41,617 nt of DNA from an uncultured Alphaproteobacteria bacterium (GTDB lineage Bacteria > Pseudomonadota > Alphaproteobacteria > HIMB59), in contig CACMWX010000007.1 in assembly GCA_902617515.1 (NCBI GenBank), positions 1 to 41,617 on the forward strand, written 5' to 3'. Shown here piece by piece: positions 8,132-27,299 of this stretch. Each line of letters starts with the position of its first letter. Position 1 is the first letter of the stretch. The notes under the pieces are model-generated. The model had not been told where the DNA came from and made no database searches. It saw only the letters and a list, made by a program, of their open reading frames with translations. The translations under genes were made by a program, and so were the position numbers.

Positions 8132-8692
8132 CATTTCAATATAAAAATGAGAAAATATGAGTTCTAATTCTTGATATGTATCTGTATTTTCACAGGGTAA
8201 TTTAATTATTAAATCAGTCTTTTTAACAATTTTAGACTTATCTGAAGTAATCAAAACAGATTTTATTTTCATTTTTTTTGCTTGTTGAATCGCTTCCAAA
8301 ATATTTAAGCTTTTATTACTTGATGTAAGCAAAATTAGTAAATCATTTTTATTACCAATAGCTGATAGTTGCCTAGAAAAAATATATTTGTAATTAAAAT
8401 CATTTGCTATTGATGTTATTACTGCAGTATCACTAGTCAATGATACAGAAGGGAGTGATCTTCTATTCAATTTGTATCTATTTACCAATTCTGCAGCCAT
8501 ATGTTGAGACTGTGATGCAGAGCCACCATTGCCAGCAAAGATGATTTTTCCTTTTTTATTTAAAGTTCTTTTAGATAAGGAAATTAATTCAAAAAGGCTT
8601 TCAAAATTATTTTCTAGTAAACTAATTTTTTCATTTAATAATTTCAATTTTGAAATAAATGAAGAGTGGATTATTGATTTATTTAGTTTCAT
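8114..8692 (-). CDS. gmhA: SIS-domain phosphoheptose isomerase (GmhA-like)
   Basis: The 192-residue protein matches sedoheptulose 7-phosphate isomerase in length and layout: an N-terminal helical segment, then the SIS loop FAGNGGSASQSQHMAAELVN near residues 52-71, SLTSDTAVITSIANDFNY near 84-101, the phosphate-binding LLTSSNKSLN near 120-129, and a terminal helix with TYQELELIFSHFYIEML. GmhA converts sedoheptulose 7-phosphate to D-glycero-D-manno-heptose 7-phosphate, the substrate of the HddA-type kinase encoded at 4332. The usual STSG is changed to TSSN. It overlaps the FkbM methyltransferase gene by 14 bases, so the two form a leftward pair. A different SIS sugar isomerase is possible but less likely. 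Confidence 0.8.
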   Translation of the reverse strand: MKLNKSIIHSSFISKLKLLNEKISLLENNFESLFELISLSKRTLNKKGKIIFAGNGGSASQSQHMAAELVNRYKLNRRSLPSVSLTSDTAVITSIANDFNYKYIFSRQLSAIGNKNDLLILLTSSNKSLNILEAIQQAKKMKIKSVLITSDKSKIVKKTDLIIKLPCENTDTYQELELIFSHFYIEMLEGLI

Positions 8693-9509
8693 AATTTTTT
8701 GGTACCATAATTAACCAATTCATTTTTTTAGGTCTATTTTCACTGAAAGCTAATAACCTCCAATCATCAGGAAAATCATCTAATTCTTCATATGCGTTAA
8801 TGTCAATTGCATTTTTATTAATATATTTAACATCAAAATATCTTTCAGATCTTTCAATTAATTTTTTTAAATCATCATGACTATAATTTTCTAGAAATTC
8901 GTGAGTTTCAATAATTATTGAGCAAAATCTTAATGATGATAATAATGTATCATTGAATAGTTTAAATTCACCTCCTTCAATGTCACAAAGAATTATTGAC
9001 TCTTTATTTTTTAATATAATTTCATTTATTGAGTGTTTATTAGCTTCACCATAAATTTCAATATATTCAGAGACCCCATTTATTTGTGAATTTTTTAAAA
9101 TATTGTCTCTTCCTTTAGGGGATATTTCAAAGCAAATTGCCTTATCGATATATCTTTTTTTAAGTAACCCTATAGCAAAATAACCATCTGCAGCTCCTAA
9201 ATTTATAAAATATTTATATTTTTTTGATAATTTGATTAAGTGTTCAGTAACATGGCTTTCATAGCTTCCAAGGAGCTTATTAGTTATGTCATATTTTCCC
9301 CACCAATAATCTTTATTCAATAATAATCCCGAAAATTGACCATATTTTATTTGATATCCAAATTTTTCAATAAGATATTTAGATAATTTTTCTTTAATAT
9401 GAATTTCATTTAAAGGAAATCCAAATTTTATAAATAATTGGTTTAAAATAAATCTAATGAATTCAACTAAACCAATATTTTTATACAAATGAATTATTTT
9501 AAAAATCAT
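8679..9509 (-). CDS. FkbM-family SAM-dependent methyltransferase
   Basis: This 276-residue protein has a class I methyltransferase core. The SAM motif I is FINLGAADGYFAIGLL near residues 91-106, the acidic CFEISP follows near 124-129, and LCDIEGGEF near 173-181 is the conserved post-II region of the FkbM family, followed by IIIETHEF. FkbM enzymes O-methylate sugars or polyketides, and in glycan clusters they usually methylate a hydroxyl of the surface sugar. There is an N-terminal extension of about 80 residues without clear motifs. The ATG at 9507-9509 is divergent from the repeat-protein gene, with 63 bases between them. It runs directly into the gmhA-like gene. Confidence 0.75.
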   Translation of the reverse strand: MIFKIIHLYKNIGLVEFIRFILNQLFIKFGFPLNEIHIKEKLSKYLIEKFGYQIKYGQFSGLLLNKDYWWGKYDITNKLLGSYESHVTEHLIKLSKKYKYFINLGAADGYFAIGLLKKRYIDKAICFEISPKGRDNILKNSQINGVSEYIEIYGEANKHSINEIILKNKESIILCDIEGGEFKLFNDTLLSSLRFCSIIIETHEFLENYSHDDLKKLIERSERYFDVKYINKNAIDINAYEELDDFPDDWRLLAFSENRPKKMNWLIMVPKNYETK

Positions 9510-9557
9510 ATTTTGTCACTTTATATTTATTTTTATTTATGAAAACCCTTTTAACAT

Positions 9558-9563
9558 TATAAT
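9558..9563 (+). promoter_or_regulatory. Candidate -10 box (TATAAT) immediately upstream of the repeat-protein gene
   Basis: A perfect TATAAT ends 9 bases before the ATG at 9573, in the 63-base gap between divergent genes. No good -35 hexamer sits 16-18 bases upstream. If used, transcription would begin within a few bases of the start codon, leaving almost no leader. In DNA this AT-rich such hexamers also occur by chance. Confidence 0.35.
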
Positions 9564-9572
9564 TTAATCTAT

Positions 9573-11081
9573 ATGGCCAAAGTTCAATTAAAAAAATATT
9601 TATATAATACAATATTATTGTTTTTGTATATTTTATTTATTTTTAGATTATCATCATCATTACTTTTATCTGAGTGTATAATTGATGATCAATACTTTAA
9701 GGTTGGGGGCACTGAGATTACTAACAAAATTATCCCTGAAAATAATAATCAACGTAATCTAATATTTCTAAATAATATCTTGGATTGGGACTCAAGTGGA
9801 GACGATATTAGTACTTGCGATATCTCTCACTTGGATAGTTTAATTTCAAAAAATGGAATTGGAGCATTTCAAGATAAAATCGAATTTAATGACGATATTA
9901 GTAGTTGGGATACCTCGAATATAAAGAACATGTCTAGGTTATTTGAAAATGCAATTTCTTTTAACCAAGATATTGGAAAGTGGAACACTTCTAATACAGT
10001 TTACATGAATTCTATGTTTGAAGGTGCCTCATCCTTTAATCAACCTATTGGAGGTTGGGATACCTCTAAAGTTAAGGAAATATATAATATTTTTAAAAAT
10101 GCAAAATCTTTCAACCAAAATATAAATGATTGGGACATATCAAACATAAAAAATCTGGACTCAATTTTTGAAGGAGCCAGTAATTTCGATCATCCAATAC
10201 AAAACTGGGATACATCAAATGTTTATACAATGTATTCAACTTTCAAAAATGCCTTATCTTTTAATCAACCTATCGGAACTTGGGATACCTCAAAAGTAAT
10301 CTACATGCATGAAATTTTTACAGGTGCCTCATCCTTTAATCAACCTATTGGAGGTTGGAATACTTCTAATGTCAAAGATATGGACAGGATGTTTATTAAT
10401 GCCACTTCCTTTAATCAACCCATAGGTAGTTGGGATACTTCCAAGGTCAACAAAATGAATTACATGTTTTACTCTGCAAAAAATTTTAATCAACCTATCG
10501 GAACTTGGGATACTTCTAATGTTAGATCTATGATAGGCATGTTTGAAAATGCGTTTTCATTTAATCAATCTATTAATGCCTGGGATACTTCAAAAGTAAC
10601 TACAATGGACTCAATGTTTGAAAGCGCCATTACTTTTAATCAATCTCTTGATAAATGGGATGTTTCAAATGTTAAAGACATGGAGGATATGTTTTATAAT
10701 GCAAAATCTTTCAATAAACCTCTTAATAAATGGGATACTTCAAATTTAATTAGAACTGATTATATGTTTAGCTTTGCTAATAAATTTAATCAACCAATCG
10801 ATAATTGGAGTACTTCTAATATCAAATCAATGATTAGTATGTTTGAGGGCGCAAGTGCCTTCAATCAATCATTAGAATTATGGGATACTAGTAATGTCAT
10901 AAATATGAGACATATGTTCTTTAATGCTATTTCATTTAATCAAGAAATCCGCACATGGAAAATTACAAATTCCACTGATTTGACTAATATGTTTGGTAAT
11001 GCAAATTCAATCTATTTGAAATACAAAAATATAGAGGGTTATGGATCAACACCCTCACTAAAATTTTTTTCAATTAATTAA
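9573..11081 (+). CDS. Exported BspA/DUF285-type repeat protein
   Basis: A 502-residue protein with a signal-peptide-like start: basic residues 3-9, a hydrophobic core about 12-32, then SEC. After a non-repeated stretch that includes a second pair of Cys, residues 108-482 are fifteen gapless 25-residue repeats (consensus P-I-G-x-W-D-T-S-x-V-x-x-M-x-x-M-F-x-x-A-x-S-F-N-Q), followed by a 20-residue tail. This is the BspA/DUF285 leucine-rich-repeat-like unit, known from surface proteins of Mycoplasma, Treponema and others, usually in adhesion or binding. No membrane anchor, lipobox or sorting motif is visible at the C-terminus. Its codons are visibly less AT-biased than those of the glycan enzymes on both sides. 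It stands alone between a divergent methyltransferase and an SDR gene. Surface display is inferred; the ligand is unknown. Confidence 0.85.
   Translation: MAKVQLKKYLYNTILLFLYILFIFRLSSSLLLSECIIDDQYFKVGGTEITNKIIPENNNQRNLIFLNNILDWDSSGDDISTCDISHLDSLISKNGIGAFQDKIEFNDDISSWDTSNIKNMSRLFENAISFNQDIGKWNTSNTVYMNSMFEGASSFNQPIGGWDTSKVKEIYNIFKNAKSFNQNINDWDISNIKNLDSIFEGASNFDHPIQNWDTSNVYTMYSTFKNALSFNQPIGTWDTSKVIYMHEIFTGASSFNQPIGGWNTSNVKDMDRMFINATSFNQPIGSWDTSKVNKMNYMFYSAKNFNQPIGTWDTSNVRSMIGMFENAFSFNQSINAWDTSKVTTMDSMFESAITFNQSLDKWDVSNVKDMEDMFYNAKSFNKPLNKWDTSNLIRTDYMFSFANKFNQPIDNWSTSNIKSMISMFEGASAFNQSLELWDTSNVINMRHMFFNAISFNQEIRTWKITNSTDLTNMFGNANSIYLKYKNIEGYGSTPSLKFFSIN
9894..11018 (+). repeat. Fifteen tandem 75-base coding repeats
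   Basis: Exactly 15 contiguous units of 75 bases (25 codons each) with no indels between units. Most units have diverged at the DNA level, but some pairs are nearly identical. A 36-base identical stretch begins near 10024 and again near 10324, four units apart. A 28-base stretch encoding the FNQPIGTWD region near 10258 recurs near 10483, three units apart. This suggests duplication or gene conversion among units. Confidence 0.9.
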
Positions 11082-11176
11082 ATTTACTTATTTTTTAATT
11101 TAAAAGTTATTATTTGCATAATATATGTAGAAAAATTAATGTAACTATTTTATTATCACTATTTAAATTATCACTG

Positions 11177-11869
11177 ATGCAAAAGAATACTTTAATCATA
11201 GGCTCATCTTCTAAGCTATCTCAGGCACTTGAGAAAAATTTATTTAAAAAAAAGCATAACGTTTATTTGACCACATCTAATGCCGTTTCAATAAAAAAAA
11301 ATTATTTTTATTTAGACCTCAATGATAAAAGCTCCTTAAAAAAATTTTTGTCATCAAACCAAAAAACTTTAAGTAAAATTAATAATGTAATTATTGTGTC
11401 AGCCATTATTTTTGGTAAAAATGAAAAAGAATATTCATATGAAGAAATCAAAAAAATAATCGATATTAATTTTATAAATTCAAGTGTACTAATTAAAAGT
11501 TTATTAGAACAGATCTCTAAAAAAATAGTTCCACATATTATTTTTATATCATCAATATCAGCTATTAGAGGCAGTTATGATCCTTACTATGCCTCATCAA
11601 AAAATGCTATGCATGCTTTCTTGAAATCTATGCATCAAAACAGATCTAGAGAATTTAGATTTAATATTATTTGCCCCTCTTTGATTTTAGATACAAATAT
11701 GTATAAGCAAATGAGTAAAAAAAATATTTCCAAATTAAAAAATAAAAACCCTCTAAAACAAATTATTAAAATTGATGATTTCACAAAAATTATCGTTGAT
11801 TTAATGTCAGATCATTGGATTAGTCTAAATTTGAAAGAATTAGTTCTTGATTTGGGTGAAACAAGATAA
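11177..11869 (+). CDS. SDR-family oxidoreductase
   Basis: A classical SDR of about 230 residues from ATG 11177. The frame is open further upstream, but that stretch would add a non-Rossmann segment and only offers a TTG. The cofactor loop is IIGSSSKLSQAL, in which the third Gly of TGxxxGxG is replaced. The catalytic Ser is in ISSISAIRGSYD, and the Tyr-xxx-Lys follows as YYASSK, then NIICPSLILDTNMY. Such enzymes reduce or oxidise an alcohol/ketone with NAD(P)H. The gene ends 2 bases before the oppositely oriented tRNA-Leu. It may modify a sugar or a fatty acyl group of the glycan locus, but nothing specific shows this. Confidence 0.7.
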   Translation: MQKNTLIIGSSSKLSQALEKNLFKKKHNVYLTTSNAVSIKKNYFYLDLNDKSSLKKFLSSNQKTLSKINNVIIVSAIIFGKNEKEYSYEEIKKIIDINFINSSVLIKSLLEQISKKIVPHIIFISSISAIRGSYDPYYASSKNAMHAFLKSMHQNRSREFRFNIICPSLILDTNMYKQMSKKNISKLKNKNPLKQIIKIDDFTKIIVDLMSDHWISLNLKELVLDLGETR

Positions 11870-11871
11870 TT

Positions 11872-11959
11872 TGGTAGCCTCGGGCGGACTCGAACCGCCA
11901 CGGGAATAAATCCCACTGGATTTTAAGTCCAGACTGTCTACCAATTCCAGCACGAGGCC
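11872..11959 (-). tRNA. tRNA-Leu (anticodon UAA)
   Basis: On the minus strand an 88-base class II tRNA folds cleanly. The acceptor GGCCTCG (11953-11959) pairs with CGAGGCT, using one G-U at the first pair, and the CCA is encoded. The anticodon stem is CTGGA/TCCAG with loop CTTAAAA, giving anticodon UAA. A long variable arm has a GGGA/TCCC stem, and the T arm is GGCGG-TTCGAGT-CCGCC. The long variable arm and anticodon identify tRNA-Leu. Its 3' end faces the SDR gene stop 2 bases away. No duplicated 3' segment suggesting an integration site was seen in the window. Confidence 0.95.
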
Positions 11960-12182
11960 ATATTAAATTCATCTATCAAAAGATAAACAATATCAATGAT
12001 TATTAACTATATTATTTTATAAATCTTACAACTATAAAAAATTTATCTGTATCATGTTATGAAAAATTAGTTATTTGTAATTGTTTATTTTATTTAAAAT
12101 TAAATAAATGATAAGAAAATAAAAGACAATTGCATTAATTCGCATAAGCTATATTGTCTCAAAAACTATTATAGATTTTCTC
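11960..12182. other. Longest intergenic gap, between tRNA-Leu and the O-antigen ligase gene
   Basis: About 223 bases, very AT-rich, with no ORF of note. It holds an AT-only inverted repeat at 12089-12108 (9-base arms TTTATTTAA and TTAAATAAA, 2-base loop). A TATAGA hexamer at 12170-12175 ends 7 bases before the GTG of the ligase gene and could be its -10 box. It must also contain the tRNA promoter on the minus strand, but I see no convincing -35/-10 pair. I see no terminator, as there is no GC stem followed by a T run. Confidence 0.4.
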
Positions 12183-13436
12183 GTGATAGAATTAAATAAA
12201 CAAATTAACTTTTTTATAAAACAAAATACTCTTAGTATCTTTTTCTTTTTTTATCTTTTCTTTTATATTGCTGGTCCTGCTCTTATTAATATTTATGTAA
12301 CTCTAATTAGTATATTCTGTTTGATTTATATTTTTTTGCACTTAGATAGAATTACTTTAAAATCTTTTTATATAGACAAACCTTCTTTTTTTTTAATAAT
12401 TTTTTTTGTTTACGCACTCATTGTAAGTATTTTAAAAAAAAATTTTAATATCGATATACTTTCTTTTTTCAGGTATTTAATAATATACTTGTTTTTAACT
12501 TTTTATTTTAGTACAAAAAAAAAACATTCAATACATTTAAAAGAAATTTTAATATTTTTTACTTTACTAATCTCCATCGACGGTCTTTATCAATATTTTT
12601 TAAGGGTAAATGTTGTTGGATTTGAAATTTTTGACTCTTATAGATTAACAAGTTTTTTTAGAAAGGAACCTATAGTTGGGAGCTTTTTACTAAAAACCTC
12701 TCTACCACTATTAGCAATTTATTTACTAAGTAATAAAAAAAATATTCTTCTCATTTTGTTATTATTATTTTCTTCAATGATAATTTTTTTATCAGGAGAG
12801 CGTATGCCTTTACTACAATATTTCTTTGGTATAGTAATAATGATTTTATTTCTAAAAAATAAAAAAAAACTTTTTGCTATTCTTGTAGCTACCTCATCAA
12901 TCTTATTGATTATTTTATCTTTAAACAAAGGTTTATTAGATAGATACGTTTCAACTTATACGACTTTTTCAACTATAGTTTCTAATACTATCAACAATGA
13001 TAATTCTCATGAAAAACAATCAATCAACGAACATTTATCTGTTAATCAATACATTCTAAACTTCAAATCTGGAATAAATGTTTGGTCACATAATAAAATT
13101 TTTGGCGGGGGATATAGATATTATAATAAAAATTGTGATTTACTTCTAGGTAATGAATATCATATAGGATGCTCTAAACATCCACATAATATATATATTG
13201 AACTACTATCTGATTATGGATTGTTAGGATCAATATTATTTATCATATTTCTTTTTAGTTCATTTTATGAATTTTATAAGAAAAATCATAATAAGATTTT
13301 TATAGGAATAGGTATATTGTTTATTACCATCTGTTTTCCACTTTCGACATCACAAAGTATTTTTTCTAGTTATTATGGATCAGTATTTTTTTTAATACCC
13401 TACTTGATGAATTATTATTCAAAATCTAATATTTAA
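12183..13436 (+). CDS. O-antigen ligase/polymerase family membrane protein (WaaL/Wzy type)
   Basis: A 417-residue polytopic inner-membrane protein with about 10-12 helices and one large periplasmic loop near residues 250-335. The loop ends in the Wzy_C family signature HPHNIYIELLSDYGLLG (near 331-347), containing the conserved HNxxxE-like stretch before the next helix. Proteins of this family join lipid-linked polysaccharide to lipid A-core (WaaL) or polymerise repeat units (Wzy); the two cannot be separated by eye. Arg residues in SYRLTSFFRKEP and SGERMPLL match the conserved Arg positions used to bind the lipid-pyrophosphate. The start is GTG 12183. It converges on the leftward exported-protein gene with 8 bases between stops. 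Confidence 0.8.
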   Translation: MIELNKQINFFIKQNTLSIFFFFYLFFYIAGPALINIYVTLISIFCLIYIFLHLDRITLKSFYIDKPSFFLIIFFVYALIVSILKKNFNIDILSFFRYLIIYLFLTFYFSTKKKHSIHLKEILIFFTLLISIDGLYQYFLRVNVVGFEIFDSYRLTSFFRKEPIVGSFLLKTSLPLLAIYLLSNKKNILLILLLLFSSMIIFLSGERMPLLQYFFGIVIMILFLKNKKKLFAILVATSSILLIILSLNKGLLDRYVSTYTTFSTIVSNTINNDNSHEKQSINEHLSVNQYILNFKSGINVWSHNKIFGGGYRYYNKNCDLLLGNEYHIGCSKHPHNIYIELLSDYGLLGSILFIIFLFSSFYEFYKKNHNKIFIGIGILFITICFPLSTSQSIFSSYYGSVFFLIPYLMNYYSKSNI

Positions 13437-13444
13437 AAAATTTA

Positions 13445-14536
13445 TTAATTTAAATAATTTTTATCTTTATATATTTCATCAAAATCTTTTTTATTTGAAA
13501 TTAAGTCAATATAAGATTTGTGATTTTTAACATAGTTTAAGTAATCTAATTTAACAATATTTTGATTTTTGTTCTTTAATAATTCAATATACTTTTCAGA
13601 TATTAAATCCTTAATAGGTAGTATCTCATTTTCAGACAACGGACTTAATTCAATATTAAAATTCCTAAATGCATTCAGTCTATTTTCTTCTTGAGTTAAA
13701 TAACACAAAAAACTAGACTGAGAGCTATTATTTAAATATGCACTAAAACCAAAAAAAGATTTTGACTCAAAATTATCTTTAATTTTGAAAAAACCATCTT
13801 TTTCATCCCAAGAATATTTACTTTTAGGAACCCTATTATATGCTTCAAACTCAAACCCTTTATAAAGAATTATTCCATCACTAAATAATGTAAATAAATT
13901 CTCTGAATTTTCATAAGAATTGTAAATCTCTTCAAAATTACTTAGTAATATATTTTTATTTAAATTTTTATAGTTTTCTCTTAAAAGAGTAAATTTTGAC
14001 TCATAATTAACACTATAATTTTCGAATTCAACTCCTTCAAAAATATCTGAAATAAAATTAATTAATTTTTCCTCAGGTAAAAAGCTTAGTCCCAAGGTGT
14101 AATAAGTTGTACTACTTATTTTTGATAATTCTTCTAGTGATACTATCTCTATATTTTGTTTGCTAGCCAAGATAAATGTATCTAAGTCTAAGGGAAAAAT
14201 ATTATTAGAAATAGAGATACCATTTTTCCTATAAAAATTGATCAAATCTGTTGGAATTTCAATTTCTTTTTGTACCATTTTTTGTAAATCGTAGTGTTCA
14301 CCAAAAATAATATCAAATTCATTTGGATTATCCTCATAATATGAAAATTCAAACTTTAAATTATTTTGGAATGAGAAATCGTTCAGTGTGTATAGTAAAT
14401 AATATTTGTAATCAATATAAGAATTATCTAAAAGTGCAACACGTAATAATTTATCAGATTTACATTCTTCAGTTTGAGCTTTATTTGAAGTAATAAGTAG
14501 TAATGGAAATAATATGTAAATAAATAGTTTTATCAA
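13445..14536 (-). CDS. Exported protein resembling a periplasmic solute-binding protein
   Basis: A 363-residue protein starting at a TTG 2 bases past the nadK stop. It has a signal peptide (MIKLFIYILFPLLLI, then TSNKAQTEE), so it is exported, probably to the periplasm. The mature N-terminus (LLRVALLDNSYIDYKYYLLY), then NEFDIIFGEHYDL, and a later TFILASKQN and FPLDLDTF region, look like a type 2 periplasmic binding protein fold. I do not recognise a substrate family. There is no neighbouring ABC permease or ATPase, so it may have lost that role or serve a distant transporter. Last gene of the leftward DUF3553-moaA-nadK unit. The binding-protein label is tentative. Confidence 0.5.
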   Translation of the reverse strand: MIKLFIYILFPLLLITSNKAQTEECKSDKLLRVALLDNSYIDYKYYLLYTLNDFSFQNNLKFEFSYYEDNPNEFDIIFGEHYDLQKMVQKEIEIPTDLINFYRKNGISISNNIFPLDLDTFILASKQNIEIVSLEELSKISSTTYYTLGLSFLPEEKLINFISDIFEGVEFENYSVNYESKFTLLRENYKNLNKNILLSNFEEIYNSYENSENLFTLFSDGIILYKGFEFEAYNRVPKSKYSWDEKDGFFKIKDNFESKSFFGFSAYLNNSSQSSFLCYLTQEENRLNAFRNFNIELSPLSENEILPIKDLISEKYIELLKNKNQNIVKLDYLNYVKNHKSYIDLISNKKDFDEIYKDKNYLN

Positions 14537-14538
14537 TA

Positions 14539-15300
14539 TTAGTTTGATTTAAACATTTCTTTATAGACCCGTTCTTCAATCTTATGATCATTATCAAATA
14601 ACAACGGTATTTCCATACCTTCGGACATTTCTATCTCAACGGATATAACATCTTTAGCTTCAATATGATCAGCATGTACCACAATTGGTCTTTTGGATGG
14701 ATTATTATTAATAATTTTAATTTTAGCATTGTCTTTTAGTAGTCCGCCACGCCAGTGCCTAGGACTATATGCACTTACTGCAGTAAGTGCTACGACATTA
14801 CTTCCAAGCGGAATTATAGGCCCCGATGCAGAGTAATTATATCCAGTGCTACCTGCCGCTGTTGATAATATAACACCATCACACACAAGCTCTTCAATCC
14901 TTACCTCATTATCTATCATAATTTGAATTTTTGCAGCTTGATATTTCTCTCTACGTATACTGATCTCATTAATAGCTATAGCTTTAATTTCTTGACCTGT
15001 AGGATTTAAGGTTTTCATAACTAATGGCCTCAATTTTGTTAATTGAGCACTACTCAGACGCTCTTCCAATCCATCTAGCTTATAATCGTTCATCAAAAAC
15101 CCGACAGATCCAAAATTCATACCATAAATTGGTTTATTAAGTTTCATATAGTTATGAAGTGATTTTAAAATAAAACCATCCCCTCCAAGTGCTACGATGA
15201 AATCTGCCTCCTCAGGATCGTGATTACCATATTTTTTTATAAGTTTCTCTTGAGCTTCAATATTTTTTTCAAGAGGAAAAGAAACAAAACATATTTTCAT
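14539..15300 (-). CDS. nadK: NAD kinase
   Basis: A 253-residue cytoplasmic enzyme that phosphorylates NAD to NADP with ATP. The diagnostic GGDG is at residues 39-42 (VALGGDGFILKS), followed by YGMNFGSVGFLMN. The second family motif is CDGVILSTAAGSTGYNYSA, with SGPIIPLG and the AVSAYSPRHWRGG segment after it. Length equals that of typical alphaproteobacterial NadK. The gene begins 3 bases after the moaA stop and is followed 2 bases later by the exported-protein gene, so the unit is tightly packed. No missing key residues were noted. Confidence 0.95.
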   Translation of the reverse strand: MKICFVSFPLEKNIEAQEKLIKKYGNHDPEEADFIVALGGDGFILKSLHNYMKLNKPIYGMNFGSVGFLMNDYKLDGLEERLSSAQLTKLRPLVMKTLNPTGQEIKAIAINEISIRREKYQAAKIQIMIDNEVRIEELVCDGVILSTAAGSTGYNYSASGPIIPLGSNVVALTAVSAYSPRHWRGGLLKDNAKIKIINNNPSKRPIVVHADHIEAKDVISVEIEMSEGMEIPLLFDNDHKIEERVYKEMFKSN

Positions 15301-22262: not shown

Positions 22263-22985
22263 ATGACCGAACATCCGCTCACTAAATTTATACCTAATTT
22301 AATTACATTAATGTCACTTATTGCAGGTATTTCCTCAATAAAGTTCTCAATTCAAAGTAATTTTAAAATTGCTGTGCTTATGATAATGCTAGCAGCCTTC
22401 TTTGATTTCTTTGATGGATGGATGGCTAGAAAATTAAAAAAATCATCCCAATTTGGTGCTGAATTAGACTCTTTATCAGATTTTATTAGTTTTGGATTAG
22501 CTCCATCTTTACTCATAAATTTAAGTTTTACTAATGAGCTTGGTAGAATTGGTTGGGTTATAAGTCTTTTTTACATTATTTGCGCAGCTCTTAGACTTGC
22601 TCGTTTCAATATTGAAAATATGAGAGAACAAAGCAAAGTATTTTATGGTATTCCCTCACCAGCTGCCGCAGGTATTATAATGATCCCGCTTTATCTAAAT
22701 TTTATTGAACAAATAGAATTTACCATTAATTATCCTATTATAAGTGCCTTTTTAATTATATTTGCGGGCACTATGATGATTAGTAGAGTTCCGACTCCCT
22801 CTGTTAAAAATCTAAAAGTAAAAACTCTATATTTTAGATTTATGATTATATTTACAGTTATTATTTTAATATTTTTAATAAGTTATTTTTGGCAAACAAC
22901 TCTTTTAGTTGCTCTTATTTATTTATTATTCTCTTTATTTAGTTTGTTTACTTACTTTATCAAACTTTTTAGAGGAGTTAGTTAA
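22263..22985 (+). CDS. pssA: CDP-diacylglycerol-serine O-phosphatidyltransferase
   Basis: A 240-residue polytopic CDP-alcohol phosphatidyltransferase. The catalytic motif is complete: D51-G52-x2-A55-R56-x8-G65-x3-D69-x3-D73 (FDGWMARKLKKSSQFGAELD region). It converts CDP-diacylglycerol and serine to phosphatidylserine, which Psd then decarboxylates. About seven membrane helices follow the motif pattern. It starts 8 bases after psd. Its last 51 bases overlap the 3' end of the convergent RND transporter gene. A phosphatidylglycerol-phosphate synthase is excluded mainly by the psd neighbour and the N-terminal layout. Confidence 0.92.
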   Translation: MTEHPLTKFIPNLITLMSLIAGISSIKFSIQSNFKIAVLMIMLAAFFDFFDGWMARKLKKSSQFGAELDSLSDFISFGLAPSLLINLSFTNELGRIGWVISLFYIICAALRLARFNIENMREQSKVFYGIPSPAAAGIIMIPLYLNFIEQIEFTINYPIISAFLIIFAGTMMISRVPTPSVKNLKVKTLYFRFMIIFTVIILIFLISYFWQTTLLVALIYLLFSLFSLFTYFIKLFRGVS

Positions 22986-25900
22986 GTATTTAGATTTAAG
23001 AATCAAAGCTGATGGAGTTACAAGTAAAGTCAATAGAGTAGAAAAAAGTAATCCAAAAACAATTGCCCTCGACAAATCTACCCACCACTGAGTGTCAGGG
23101 GAGTTATAGCTATATTCAAAGTTTACAAAATCAATATTTAATTTTAAAGCCATGGGAAGTAAACCAAGTACCGTAGTAGTTGTTGTCAATAAAACAGGTC
23201 TCAATCTTTGTGCTCCAGTCATTAAAATGGCATCTCTAGCATCATTTGTCTTTTTAATTAATCTATCAAAGGTATCAATTAAGACTATATTGTTGTTTAC
23301 AACTATACCTGCTAAAGAGATGACACCTATTCCGCTCATTACTATTCCAAACGGTTGTTTTGTAATTAAGAGCCCCAAAACAACACCCACTGTTGACATA
23401 ATTACAGCAAATAGAATTAATAAGGTGCTACTAAAACTATTAAATTGGGTCAAAAGAATTAAACCCATTAAAAATACAGCAATCAAAAAAGCTTTTTGTA
23501 AAAAAGCCTTAGACTTTTGCTGACTTTCATCCTCTCCCTTAAATTCTATTTTTACTCTAGGATCAATATTTGCTGAATTAAATTCTGGAATATCTAAACC
23601 AAAGTTATTTGGAATATTGAATTTTTCAATTCCAAGCCAATGTTTTATAAGTCTGACATAAGCATCAGTTTGATAAAATCTAGTTACATCTGATTTAATT
23701 GTTTCAATTCTATTCTGTTCTACTCTAGTCAAATTTCCTGTCTCTTGATTGGTTTCAATTTTAGTAAAATTTGAAATTGGTACATAGCCTGATGATGTTG
23801 GTATTTTAATATTGTCTAATTGATCGATCGTTCTCTGCTCTTTTGGCAATCTAAGATATATGGGTATGGACTCATCACTATCATCAGGTCTAAATTCACT
23901 CAATTTTAGCCCACTTGTAAGAAGTTTTATAGTGTTACCTATTATTGATATACTTGCACCATATTTTGCAGCCTCTTCTCTATCTACATAAAGTTCATAT
24001 TCAATACTAGGAGAGGGTAGTGATGTTTCCAAATCTTTTAAACCAGATATGCTTGATAGATATTTTTCAATTCTTTTAAGTTCTTGAACTGTGATTTTAG
24101 GATCAGAAGAAGTTAAATTGATTTCAATGGGCTTCCCTCTAGGAGGCCCTGCTCTTAAAGTTCTTGTTTCAACTTTAATCCCAGGAATTACTGAAGTTTC
24201 TTTTCTTATTTCAGAAATTATCGTGTCTGCTTTTCTTCTTTTATCCCAATCTTTGAATTCTATATCTATAAATCCTATAATATCAGGCGAACTTTCTTGT
24301 CTATTTTCTACATTTCCAGATGTTGTATAAATAGATTCAAATTCATTATTTTTTTGTTGCAAGTTTAATACTTGTGTTTCCACCTTTGCTACGAGCCTAT
24401 CTTTTTCTAAAACTGAGAGATTGCCTGTAGCATAAATAATTACTTTGGTATTCTCTGCTTCAACTGAAGGAAAAAAAGTTACTCCCTTACCAAACTTTCC
24501 ATAAGCACCATAGATACCAATTAACAATATAAAAGAGAGAAAAACTATTTTTATAGGATTATTTATACAAAGCCTCAAAATAAAAAGATAAATTTTAGTA
24601 AAAAAACCAACTTTTTCTAAGTCAGTTAAGTCTTCGTCATCATCAGCATTTATTCTAGGGATAATCATTTTCTGAAAAAAACCTTTGTTTTTAATATACC
24701 TAAAAATAAAAAACAAAATGACACCAATTGAAATTGTAGTTATAACCTTTGCTCCCATATTAATGTAGCTATCAAATTCTAGTTGAGATAAAAAATTAAA
24801 TGCAACAAAATTAATAATACCAAATAAAATCAAAGGTATAATAAAGAAGAAAAAAAGATTTTTAATTTTATAGGCCTGAGTTCCAATAATAGGAATAACT
24901 ATTAAGGCCATAGCTAAACTTGAACCTAAAACAGATATTACTGTTATTGGTATATATTTCATAAAACCACCGGTTGTGCCTGGCCAAAATAACAGAGGGA
25001 TAAATGCTGCTATAGTAGTAAAAGTTGAAGCCATGATTGGAAGGGACATTCTTGATGCTGCTTTTATATATGACTCTGCTAGCCCCATACCCTCTTGTAT
25101 TTTTCTTTGGGCATATTCAACTACAACCACAGCTCCATCGACAAGTAGCCCAACTGAGAGAATTAATCCAAATAAAACTACCATATTGATCGTAAAACCG
25201 AGTGAATAAAGGATTAAAATTGATGATAAAAAAGAACCCGGCACGGCTAAACCTACCAATAAACTAGATCTTATGCCAAGAAAGATAACAACGACACTCA
25301 TAACAAGAATTATTGAAAAAATTACATTGTTTTGAAGATCTCCTAACATGCTTTTTATATTTACAGACTCATCACCAGAAAAAGTTATGTTAACCTTCGA
25401 AGGAAGAATTTTTTGCTCCTCCTTTACCAACTGTTTTACTTGATCAACAGTCTCCACAATGTTTGCTCCAATTCTTTTAGATATTTCTAAAGTGAATGCA
25501 GATTTATTATTTAATCGAGCAAATTTTTCTGGATCTTTAAAAGTTCTTTTAAGTTGAGCAATATCTTTAAATTTAATTGTTTTTTTATCATTCACCTTTA
25601 TTGGTGTATTAAAAACATCATTCAGGCTTTCATATAAACCAGGAATTTTAATTACAAACCTTCCATCTCCTGTATCAAGATTTCCAGCAGAAACTATTTG
25701 GTTATTAGATCTTACAAAGTTTAATATTTCATTTAAATTTAATCCATAAGCTTCAATTTTATTCTGGTCAATGACAATGTCTAATTGCTCTTCTCTTTCA
25801 CCACCAATATTTACTTCTAAGACATTTGGTAGAGATTGTATTTTGTCTTTAAGGTCATTTGAAATCTTCTTTAGTAAAAATTCAGATATGTCGCCACTTA

Positions 25901-26327
25901 TAGAAACAACTAAAATGGGAAATAAGCTTATATTGACCTCACTCACCTTGGGTTCATCTGCATCATCAGGTAAATCTGATTTTGCTCTGTCAACTTGTTC
26001 TCTAGTGTCTAAAAGTGCTTGATCAGGATCAAACCCAGCATCAAACTCTAATAAGACATTTCCACCACCTTGATAAGAAGTGCTAGTCATTTCTTTTTTT
26101 CCTTCGATATTTGAAACTTCATCTTCAACAGGTTTTATTAAAAGTTTTTCAGAGTCCTCCGGGGATATTCCTGTCAAACCTAGAGATACGTATATATAAG
26201 GCAAACTTACATCTGGCGATGACTCTTTAGGAATATTATTAAATACTAGCGATCCACTAACAATAACAAATAGGAAAATGGAAATCGTAGTTCTGTAGTA
26301 TTGACTTGCTAAGTTAACCAAGCTCAT
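22935..26327 (-). CDS. RND-family efflux transporter (AcrB/HAE1 type)
   Basis: An 1130-residue inner-membrane pump with the duplicated RND layout: one helix, a porter domain, six helices, repeated. Helix 4 carries SVGLLVDGAVVVVEYAQR, with the proton-relay Asp397; the next position is Gly where AcrB has a second Asp. The second half has GVISLAGIVVNNNIVLIDTF. Between the helix-6 region and the second porter domain (residues about 489-545) are two extra hydrophobic segments not expected in AcrB. It is downstream of the periplasmic adaptor gene with a 2-base gap, and no outer-membrane TolC is present here. Substrate unknown. The 3' end overlaps pssA by 51 bases. Confidence 0.9.
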   Translation of the reverse strand: MSLVNLASQYYRTTISIFLFVIVSGSLVFNNIPKESSPDVSLPYIYVSLGLTGISPEDSEKLLIKPVEDEVSNIEGKKEMTSTSYQGGGNVLLEFDAGFDPDQALLDTREQVDRAKSDLPDDADEPKVSEVNISLFPILVVSISGDISEFLLKKISNDLKDKIQSLPNVLEVNIGGEREEQLDIVIDQNKIEAYGLNLNEILNFVRSNNQIVSAGNLDTGDGRFVIKIPGLYESLNDVFNTPIKVNDKKTIKFKDIAQLKRTFKDPEKFARLNNKSAFTLEISKRIGANIVETVDQVKQLVKEEQKILPSKVNITFSGDESVNIKSMLGDLQNNVIFSIILVMSVVVIFLGIRSSLLVGLAVPGSFLSSILILYSLGFTINMVVLFGLILSVGLLVDGAVVVVEYAQRKIQEGMGLAESYIKAASRMSLPIMASTFTTIAAFIPLLFWPGTTGGFMKYIPITVISVLGSSLAMALIVIPIIGTQAYKIKNLFFFFIIPLILFGIINFVAFNFLSQLEFDSYINMGAKVITTISIGVILFFIFRYIKNKGFFQKMIIPRINADDDEDLTDLEKVGFFTKIYLFILRLCINNPIKIVFLSFILLIGIYGAYGKFGKGVTFFPSVEAENTKVIIYATGNLSVLEKDRLVAKVETQVLNLQQKNNEFESIYTTSGNVENRQESSPDIIGFIDIEFKDWDKRRKADTIISEIRKETSVIPGIKVETRTLRAGPPRGKPIEINLTSSDPKITVQELKRIEKYLSSISGLKDLETSLPSPSIEYELYVDREEAAKYGASISIIGNTIKLLTSGLKLSEFRPDDSDESIPIYLRLPKEQRTIDQLDNIKIPTSSGYVPISNFTKIETNQETGNLTRVEQNRIETIKSDVTRFYQTDAYVRLIKHWLGIEKFNIPNNFGLDIPEFNSANIDPRVKIEFKGEDESQQKSKAFLQKAFLIAVFLMGLILLTQFNSFSSTLLILFAVIMSTVGVVLGLLITKQPFGIVMSGIGVISLAGIVVNNNIVLIDTFDRLIKKTNDARDAILMTGAQRLRPVLLTTTTTVLGLLPMALKLNIDFVNFEYSYNSPDTQWWVDLSRAIVFGLLFSTLLTLLVTPSALILKSKYLTNSSKKFDKVSKQTK

Positions 26328-26329
26328 GA

Positions 26330-27235
26330 TTAATTAAAATTAACTTTTTCTCCCGCAGACACGTATTGCTGACCAACAATTATAATTTTTTCTTTTTGAC
26401 TCAAGCCAGACACCAACATGTAGTCAGAGGTATCTTCTATAACGTTAATTTTTTTAAATTGTACGGTATTATCAGATCCTATGACTTTTACACCTAACTC
26501 TCCTGAGTCTCCCAAAGCTAGAATTGAGGGAGAAATTTTATGCGCAAGAACATTTCCTTTAACTATAGAAATTATTGATGATAATCCATCTTTATATCTA
26601 AGATCTTTATTTTCAACTTTGACAACAATTTCAAAAGTTTTAGTCTCCGGATCTGAAATAGGAGAGATATAGTCAATTGTGCCATTAACTTTTTCATTAA
26701 GTATTGTCACCTCAACTTTATTTTCTAAGGATATATCTAGAATTTCATTTTCGTTAATATAACCAAATATTTTTAATGAGCTTAAATCAATAATTTCATA
26801 GACCTTTTCGCCAGGCATTACAAGCTCTCCAGCAATCTTATGACCATCTAAAAGTATTCCACTAAAAGGTGCAAAAAGAGCATATTTATCAAATTCACTT
26901 TGAGACAATAAGTTTAATTTGTATAAATCAGCGTTCGTTTTGTAATCATCTAATTCAACTATATGCTGACCTTTTTTTATTTTAGATCCTGCTTTAACCA
27001 ACACTTTTTCTATTGTAGTCATCACCTCACTCTTAACTTCAATTCTCCTTAAAGCTTCAGTAGTTGAGCTAAAAACAATACTATCTTTTATCGTTTGTGC
27101 AGAGGAATCTATAACCTCAACAGAAAATAATTTTTCATCTGTTTCTTCTTTGCTTCCCCATTCTGATGAGTAACATATAGAGTTTATAAGTGTTATGATT
27201 GATACAATAATTATTTTTTTTATGGTGGATAACAT
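26330..27235 (-). CDS. RND efflux periplasmic adaptor (HlyD/MFP family), very short hairpin
   Basis: A 301-residue protein from the ATG at 27233-27235, which gives a clean signal peptide (MLSTIKKIIIVSIITLINSI). A longer in-frame start at 27277 would put 14 residues before it. The lipoyl half-motif EVMTTIEKVLVKAGSKIKKG and ELDDYK is followed after only about 22 residues by the second half, APFSGILLDGHK-AGELV. Then come a beta-barrel region and a membrane-proximal domain. Normal adaptors have some 60-100 residues of alpha-hairpin between the half-motifs to reach TolC. Such an adaptor would link the pump to the periplasm but hardly to an outer-membrane channel. It diverges from rlmE. Confidence 0.85.
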   Translation of the reverse strand: MLSTIKKIIIVSIITLINSICYSSEWGSKEETDEKLFSVEVIDSSAQTIKDSIVFSSTTEALRRIEVKSEVMTTIEKVLVKAGSKIKKGQHIVELDDYKTNADLYKLNLLSQSEFDKYALFAPFSGILLDGHKIAGELVMPGEKVYEIIDLSSLKIFGYINENEILDISLENKVEVTILNEKVNGTIDYISPISDPETKTFEIVVKVENKDLRYKDGLSSIISIVKGNVLAHKISPSILALGDSGELGVKVIGSDNTVQFKKINVIEDTSDYMLVSGLSQKEKIIIVGQQYVSAGEKVNFN

Positions 27236-27299
27236 AGATGAGTTTAAACCTATTAGAATATATGTAATCGAATACATATCAGATTATGAGTAAAATTAA

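Follow-up and report, generated by a model that had tools for sequence, protein, structure and literature searches.

Throughout the HIMB59 clade (formerly SAR11 subclade V), a group of tiny-genome, free-living marine bacteria, the periplasmic adaptor of an RND efflux pump is shortened, and this adaptor is part of the sole RND efflux system of the clade. The copy analyzed here lies in a 41,617-nucleotide stretch of DNA (contig CACMWX010000007.1), hereafter referred to as the window. In this adaptor, the alpha-helical coiled-coil hairpin between the two halves of the lipoyl domain is absent and a 20-residue stub is found in its place. We consider it reasonably likely that the system is a tripartite exporter resembling BesABC of Borrelia burgdorferi, in which the TolC-type outer-membrane channel (OMF) docks directly on the pump and the lipoyl ring.

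The adaptor gene and the predicted structure of its product

The adaptor gene adjoins an RND permease gene, which lies directly downstream, and this pairing is conserved both in the clade and in a sister family from the same order. The features of the locus are as follows.

22935-26327, reverse strand: cognate RND permease (ACR_tran) of 1130 aa (Pfam ACR_tran, 3.8e-150)
26330-27277, reverse strand: RND periplasmic adaptor (membrane fusion protein), a 315-aa ORF (Pfam HlyD_D23, 7.9e-18; HlyD_3, 1.1e-12)
26948-27040, reverse strand: first lipoyl half, residues ~66-96 (alignment with the sister family and AcrA; model strands)
26888-26947, reverse strand: 20-residue stub DYKTNADLYKLNLLSQSEFD in place of the alpha-hairpin (alignment, dN/dS, AlphaFold)
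26795-26887, reverse strand: second lipoyl half, residues ~117-147, starting K-x-A-L-x-APFxG (alignment; model strands)
26333-26794, reverse strand: portion of the adaptor C-terminal to the second lipoyl half (Pfam, model strands, Foldseek)

The HlyD_D23/HlyD_3 match reaches residue 231 of the ORF. Because several relatives have stop codons upstream, the true start is probably M15, at 27235, which would give a protein of 301 aa. Around the stub the sequence runs ...IVELDDYK-TNADLYKLNLLSQSEFDKYALF-APFSG..., so that ELDDYK and APFSG are separated by exactly 22 residues (26873-26938), where an initial reading made from the sequence alone had estimated about 22. When the inter-lipoyl stretch was counted as in the Borrelia literature, it comprised 20 residues (26888-26947). 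The same counting yielded 75 residues for AcrA, in agreement with the published hairpin lengths of 75 residues for AcrA, 61 for MexA and 9 for BesA (PMC2279261).

An AlphaFold model of the adaptor based on 54 homologues had a mean pLDDT of 89.5 and an intact lipoyl/barrel/membrane-proximal fold; this alignment was used in place of an input of 23 near-identical rows, which gave a poor lipoyl region (pLDDT 72.9). The stub was modeled, at pLDDT 92-95, as a mini-hairpin with helices at residues 98-106 and 112-115, i.e., nine and four helical residues. No hairpin was predicted elsewhere in the model, the other helix being the N-terminal signal helix. In Foldseek searches the model matched MexA, AcrA and BesA, the last being among the best fold matches, and BesA was also the best PDB sequence match of the adaptor (E 1.4e-6). 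The N-terminus of the clade adaptor resembles a signal peptide (..FAS-EWG..), whereas sister-family adaptors start with a membrane anchor (MKRSIFIAFIILAAVVGWIGSG); in the clade, the loss of the hairpin may have been accompanied by a loss of membrane attachment.

The shortened hairpin is shared by the whole clade

The genome from which the window comes is a draft, 63% complete, which could point to an artefact of assembly, binning or sequencing, with a deletion confined to this genome. This explanation was rejected and has practically no chance of being correct, as 84 retrieved loci with 41 distinct ORFs carry the same stub, among them that of the complete single-contig genome G030 (1,410,127 bp) and those of many independent single-cell genomes. 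Of these loci, 39 are named public contigs from the GTDB collection, mostly single-cell genomes. Of 37 genomes searched from the same genus, 33 carried the adaptor, every copy that spans the linker has a stub of exactly 20 residues, and the stub was found in more than 30 species-level genomes.

In a common alignment, the hairpin measured 20 residues in 18/18 sequences from the HIMB59 clade and 61 residues in 27 homologues from outside the order, mostly from other alphaproteobacteria. One further homologue from outside the order had a hairpin of 103 residues, and the six sister-family orthologues, which occupy the same locus, had hairpins of 111-125 residues. The loss of the hairpin stalk that had been read from the sequence is thus confirmed, both by the contrast between 20 residues and the 61-125 of most homologues and by the mini-hairpin of the AlphaFold model. 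The SAR86 adaptors L124 and L125 have a 47-residue hairpin, one heptad fewer per helix than the class standard and intermediate in shortening; they resemble the clade adaptor in being shortened but differ in that theirs is still a real coiled coil and not a stub.

Among close homologues outside the clade, none without a hairpin was found in the 172 of 385 alphaproteobacterial genomes, or in the 82 of 398 Pseudomonadota genomes, that gave a match. The contiguous lipoyl-stub-lipoyl pattern of the clade was likewise found in no other close homologue in the class and phylum surveys. The non-clade matches listed for the clade profile start at the tip or slightly before it, except that of G326, which starts further upstream; on inspection, the G326 adaptor has a 61-residue hairpin.

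The stub corresponds to the hairpin tip and is under strong selection

The stub was scored against a 61-column profile of the class hairpin at all ungapped offsets, using seven diverse clade representatives. The best offset was 20, i.e., the exact centre of the 61 columns, in 7/7 representatives, and the match was gapless. This contiguous centre scored a mean of -1.2 bits, compared with -14.8 for the next offset and -11.4 for the best join that a single deletion could produce, and only 4/5000 shuffles equaled the observed score. The segment LLSQSEFDKY, initially taken for either the hairpin tip or the start of the second helix, aligns to the exact centre of the hairpin and hence belongs to the tip. 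A single in-frame internal deletion, which the sequence-only reading had thought likely, was rejected, given that a joined start and end fits worse than the contiguous tip.

As the stub fits the contiguous centre better than any join, the alignment indicates that both helices were shortened, with ~20 residues removed from each and the 20-residue tip retained. Adaptor hairpins lengthen and shorten by heptads in both helices (PMC4446572), and the two-sided stalk loss in the clade adaptor accords with this rule. The stubs closest in look to the ancestral hairpin tip are those of the deep-branching members L224 (genome G013) and L077 (genome G024).

The hairpin tip is the OMF-contacting end of ordinary adaptors. 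Pairwise Nei-Gojobori dN/dS, calculated for pairs that are 80-99% identical, was 0.017 for the stub and 0.062 for residues 36-300 (the whole mature protein); the tip is the part of the adaptor under the strongest purifying selection. Leu104 and Ser111 are near-invariant, and fully invariant in a 15-sequence alignment of the clade and the sister family. Their spacing of 7 is the same as that of L132 and S139 in the RLS motif (RxxxLxxxxxxS) of AcrA. The Arg position of this motif is occupied by Thr or Ser in the clade, and Arg is also missing from most class homologues. The 12-residue motif of HlyD, grafted alone into MacA, suffices for binding to the TolC tip (PMC3391258), and L100 of MexA is essential (PMC6447562). 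Judging from its conservation and its modeled fold, the retained tip of the clade adaptor is functional.

A single TolC-family channel with altered tip and gate residues

No TolC-type gene was found in the window or adjoining the pump. The initial statement that none is nearby therefore holds for the window, but TolC-family genes are present elsewhere in the genome and in the clade. The complete genome G030 encodes one ACR_tran pump, one HlyD-type adaptor (detected with two Pfam models) and one 423-aa TolC-family OMF, and the same set of one pump, one adaptor and one OMF was found in G004 and G029 (94% complete). A TolC-family OMF was present in 41/52 clade genomes, most of which are incomplete. 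The clade OMF gene is unlinked to the adaptor-pump pair, so that pump and OMF are paired by elimination, from one complete genome and a few near-complete ones; on this basis, we infer that adaptor, pump and OMF form one complex.

Compared with TolC, the clade OMFs have lost G365 in 34/34 aligned rows and G147 in 33/34. The gate residue R367 was replaced by Ile or Val in 34/34 rows, and the position of D371 was mostly occupied by Gln, Glu or Arg. By contrast, the positions of G147, G365 and R367 were Gly, Gly and Lys in 6/6 sister-family OMFs. Class OMFs had both glycines in 30/30 cases and R367 in 26/30. In MexAB-OprM, Ala substitutions at the tip-turn glycines G199 and G407 of OprM, the counterparts of TolC G147 and G365, abolish complex formation (PMC6447562). 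The primary OMF gate is normally unlocked by the adaptor hairpin, and the gates are weak or disrupted in BesC, the channel that works with the hairpin-less BesA (PMC8277102, PMC4446572, PMC2279261). An unusual outer-membrane partner, one of the options raised at the outset, fits these data. The association between the OMF changes and hairpin loss nevertheless amounts to n=1 (n=2 with Borrelia), as both are one evolutionary event. The channels of the deep-branching L224 and L077 keep G147 and have lost G365; together with their stubs, the sequences of these members suggest that adaptor and channel changed stepwise.

The only OMF detected in the genome of the window itself was a secretion-type protein of 815 aa, owing to the incompleteness of this genome. 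It was set aside as a candidate partner, as it adjoins a giant adhesin-like gene and was not detected in the complete relative. This protein, which could not be aligned reliably, also seems to be without the canonical tip glycines, and the loss of these glycines is for that reason no proof of partnership with the stub; the protein, considered as an internal control, thus weakens the argument from the glycines. Some clade genomes (L073, 5789-8227 on the reverse strand and 8339-15004; L193; L071) carry a secretion cluster that was not detected in G030. It comprises a giant protein starting ...LEPRIMFDGA..., a lipoprotein-like TolC-family protein of ~815 aa that is extended at its C-terminus, and a hairpin-bearing HlyD of 249 aa. 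It also includes a HlyD fusion of 459 aa and an ORF of 700 aa in which HlyD features are combined with membrane-peptidase-like ones (HELGH). Given that the adaptor of this cluster bears a hairpin, the loss is confined to the RND adaptor.

The sequence-only reading had also raised export into the periplasm only. Adaptor and pump would then be a two-component exporter that no longer uses an OMF, with the stub as a leftover. Such an exporter would agree with the position of the OMF gene away from the pump, with the loss of the TolC-contacting stalk and with that of the OMF glycines for canonical docking. However, conservation is higher in the stub than in the remaining adaptor, which disfavors a leftover. 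Moreover, the OMF is kept in most clade genomes, and in the complete genome there is no other adaptor that it could serve. BesA, finally, is without even the tip, yet besABC is required for resistance (PMC2279261, PMC3807786). We regard export into the periplasm alone as unlikely.

Alternatively, an additional periplasmic or outer-membrane protein might bridge the shortened adaptor to the channel and supply the missing length, a possibility that the authors of the BesA study left open for that protein (PMC3807786). The clade OMF has not been lengthened (421-424 aa vs 427-428 aa in the sister family), in agreement with such a bridge. Nonetheless, apart from this adaptor, no HlyD-type protein, and so none with a hairpin, was detected in the complete genome and no candidate adjoins the pump or OMF genes, making a bridging protein quite improbable.

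The RND pump and its locus

The paired pump is intact, as had been read from its sequence, with the ACR_tran match given above and a length like that of its sister-family counterparts (1123-1133 aa in the clade and 1129-1131 aa in the sister family). Clade and sister-family pumps are ~50% identical, and their alignment showed no compensating insertion in the periplasmic parts of the clade pump. A lengthened channel or pump that makes up for the lost stalk was rejected, as neither the OMF nor the pump is extended. TM4 of the pump contains a single Asp (VGLLVDGA). Residues ~485-590 (24560-24870, reverse strand) form an extra hydrophobic stretch of about two membrane segments between TM6 and TM7, which is common to the clade and the sister family; AcrB is not known to have such a stretch. 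The gene order rrmJ-adaptor-pump-pssA-psd-icd is likewise common to both groups, and in the window the 3' ends of pssA and the pump gene, which are convergent, overlap by ~50 bases (22935-22985).

Pump identity remains ~85% between divergent clade members, which suggests a housekeeping role. Together with the unlinked position of the OMF gene, this would be compatible with an OMF that serves another exporter, outside the families used in our searches, and with an RND pair that performs a different task, e.g., the transport of lipids or other envelope components. Against this, the complete genome has one RND pump and one adaptor, and the pump sequence bears no sign of a lipid transporter, its Pfam family being ACR_tran and its best PDB matches being multidrug-type pumps. 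The original suggestion that lipids rather than drugs are moved gained no evidence, and we attach little likelihood to a separate task of this kind.

Comparison with known systems and proposed assembly

Hairpin-less adaptors are already known from BesA-BesB-BesC of B. burgdorferi (PDB 4KKS/4KKT/4KKU; PMC3807786, PMC2279261). BesABC resembles the clade system in that the adaptor lacks the alpha-hairpin but retains the lipoyl, barrel and membrane-proximal domains, in that a small genome holds one set of pump, adaptor and OMF, and in that the entrance gate residues of the OMF are altered. It differs in that BesA is left with a flexible loop of 9 residues and lacks the tip, whereas the clade adaptor keeps a conserved tip of 20 residues, and in that BesCAB form one operon, whereas the clade OMF is unlinked. 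Sequences similar to BesA were reported from other spirochaetes and, rarely, from proteobacteria (PMC3807786). As Borrelia belongs to a different phylum, the hairpin loss in the clade is independent of that in BesA.

MexAB-OprM and AcrAB-TolC share with the clade system the domain order of the adaptor, the RND permease family, a TolC-family channel, and the Leu and Ser of the RLS tip motif at the right spacing. They differ in having a hairpin of 61 or 75 residues; furthermore, the clade OMF is without the tip glycines required for MexA-OprM docking and the clade adaptor without the Arg of the RLS motif. The sister family has the same locus and neighbors, a pump of ~50% identity and an adaptor whose C-terminal half is ~40% identical, but differs in its long hairpin, its N-terminal membrane anchor and its canonical OMF tip and gate residues. 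What is new is a clade-wide alphaproteobacterial case in which the tip is retained and under selection, the evidence points to symmetric stalk loss, and the only channel shows matching changes.

In the BesABC-like exporter that we favor, each helix of the alpha-hairpin became ~20 residues shorter once the clade and the sister family had separated, and the 20-residue tip now forms a mini-hairpin seated directly on the lipoyl domain. The barrel and membrane-proximal domains would presumably clasp the pump as usual, while the lipoyl domains would form a ring and the stubs a short collar. Without a hairpin funnel, the TolC-type channel would dock on top of the pump and on the lipoyl/stub collar, as has been modeled for Borrelia BesABC. 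The channel would be lowered by ~30 A relative to a 61-residue hairpin (20 helical residues x 1.5 A) and would meet the docking domain of the pump; we infer this direct docking of channel and pump by analogy. The channel gate, normally pried open by hairpins, is altered in the same lineage, and the exported substrates would presumably be small amphiphilic compounds.

More tentatively, and with a chance that we place a little below even, the exporter may have a new geometry in which the tip sits on the lipoyl ring, the tip and gate of the channel have co-evolved with the collar, and channel and pump are in direct contact. If so, the hairpin funnel would serve as a spacer and gate-opener that can be dispensed with, not as an essential conduit, and the tip would be separable from the stalk.

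As a second, independent hairpin loss after Borrelia, the clade offers a test case for pump assembly without the hairpin arm. With its many genomes, its hairpin-keeping sister family and its matched channel changes, it lends itself to tests in which stalks and tips are exchanged among close orthologues, and a series of hairpin lengths of 20, 47, 61, 103 and 111-125 residues is now available for one adaptor family.
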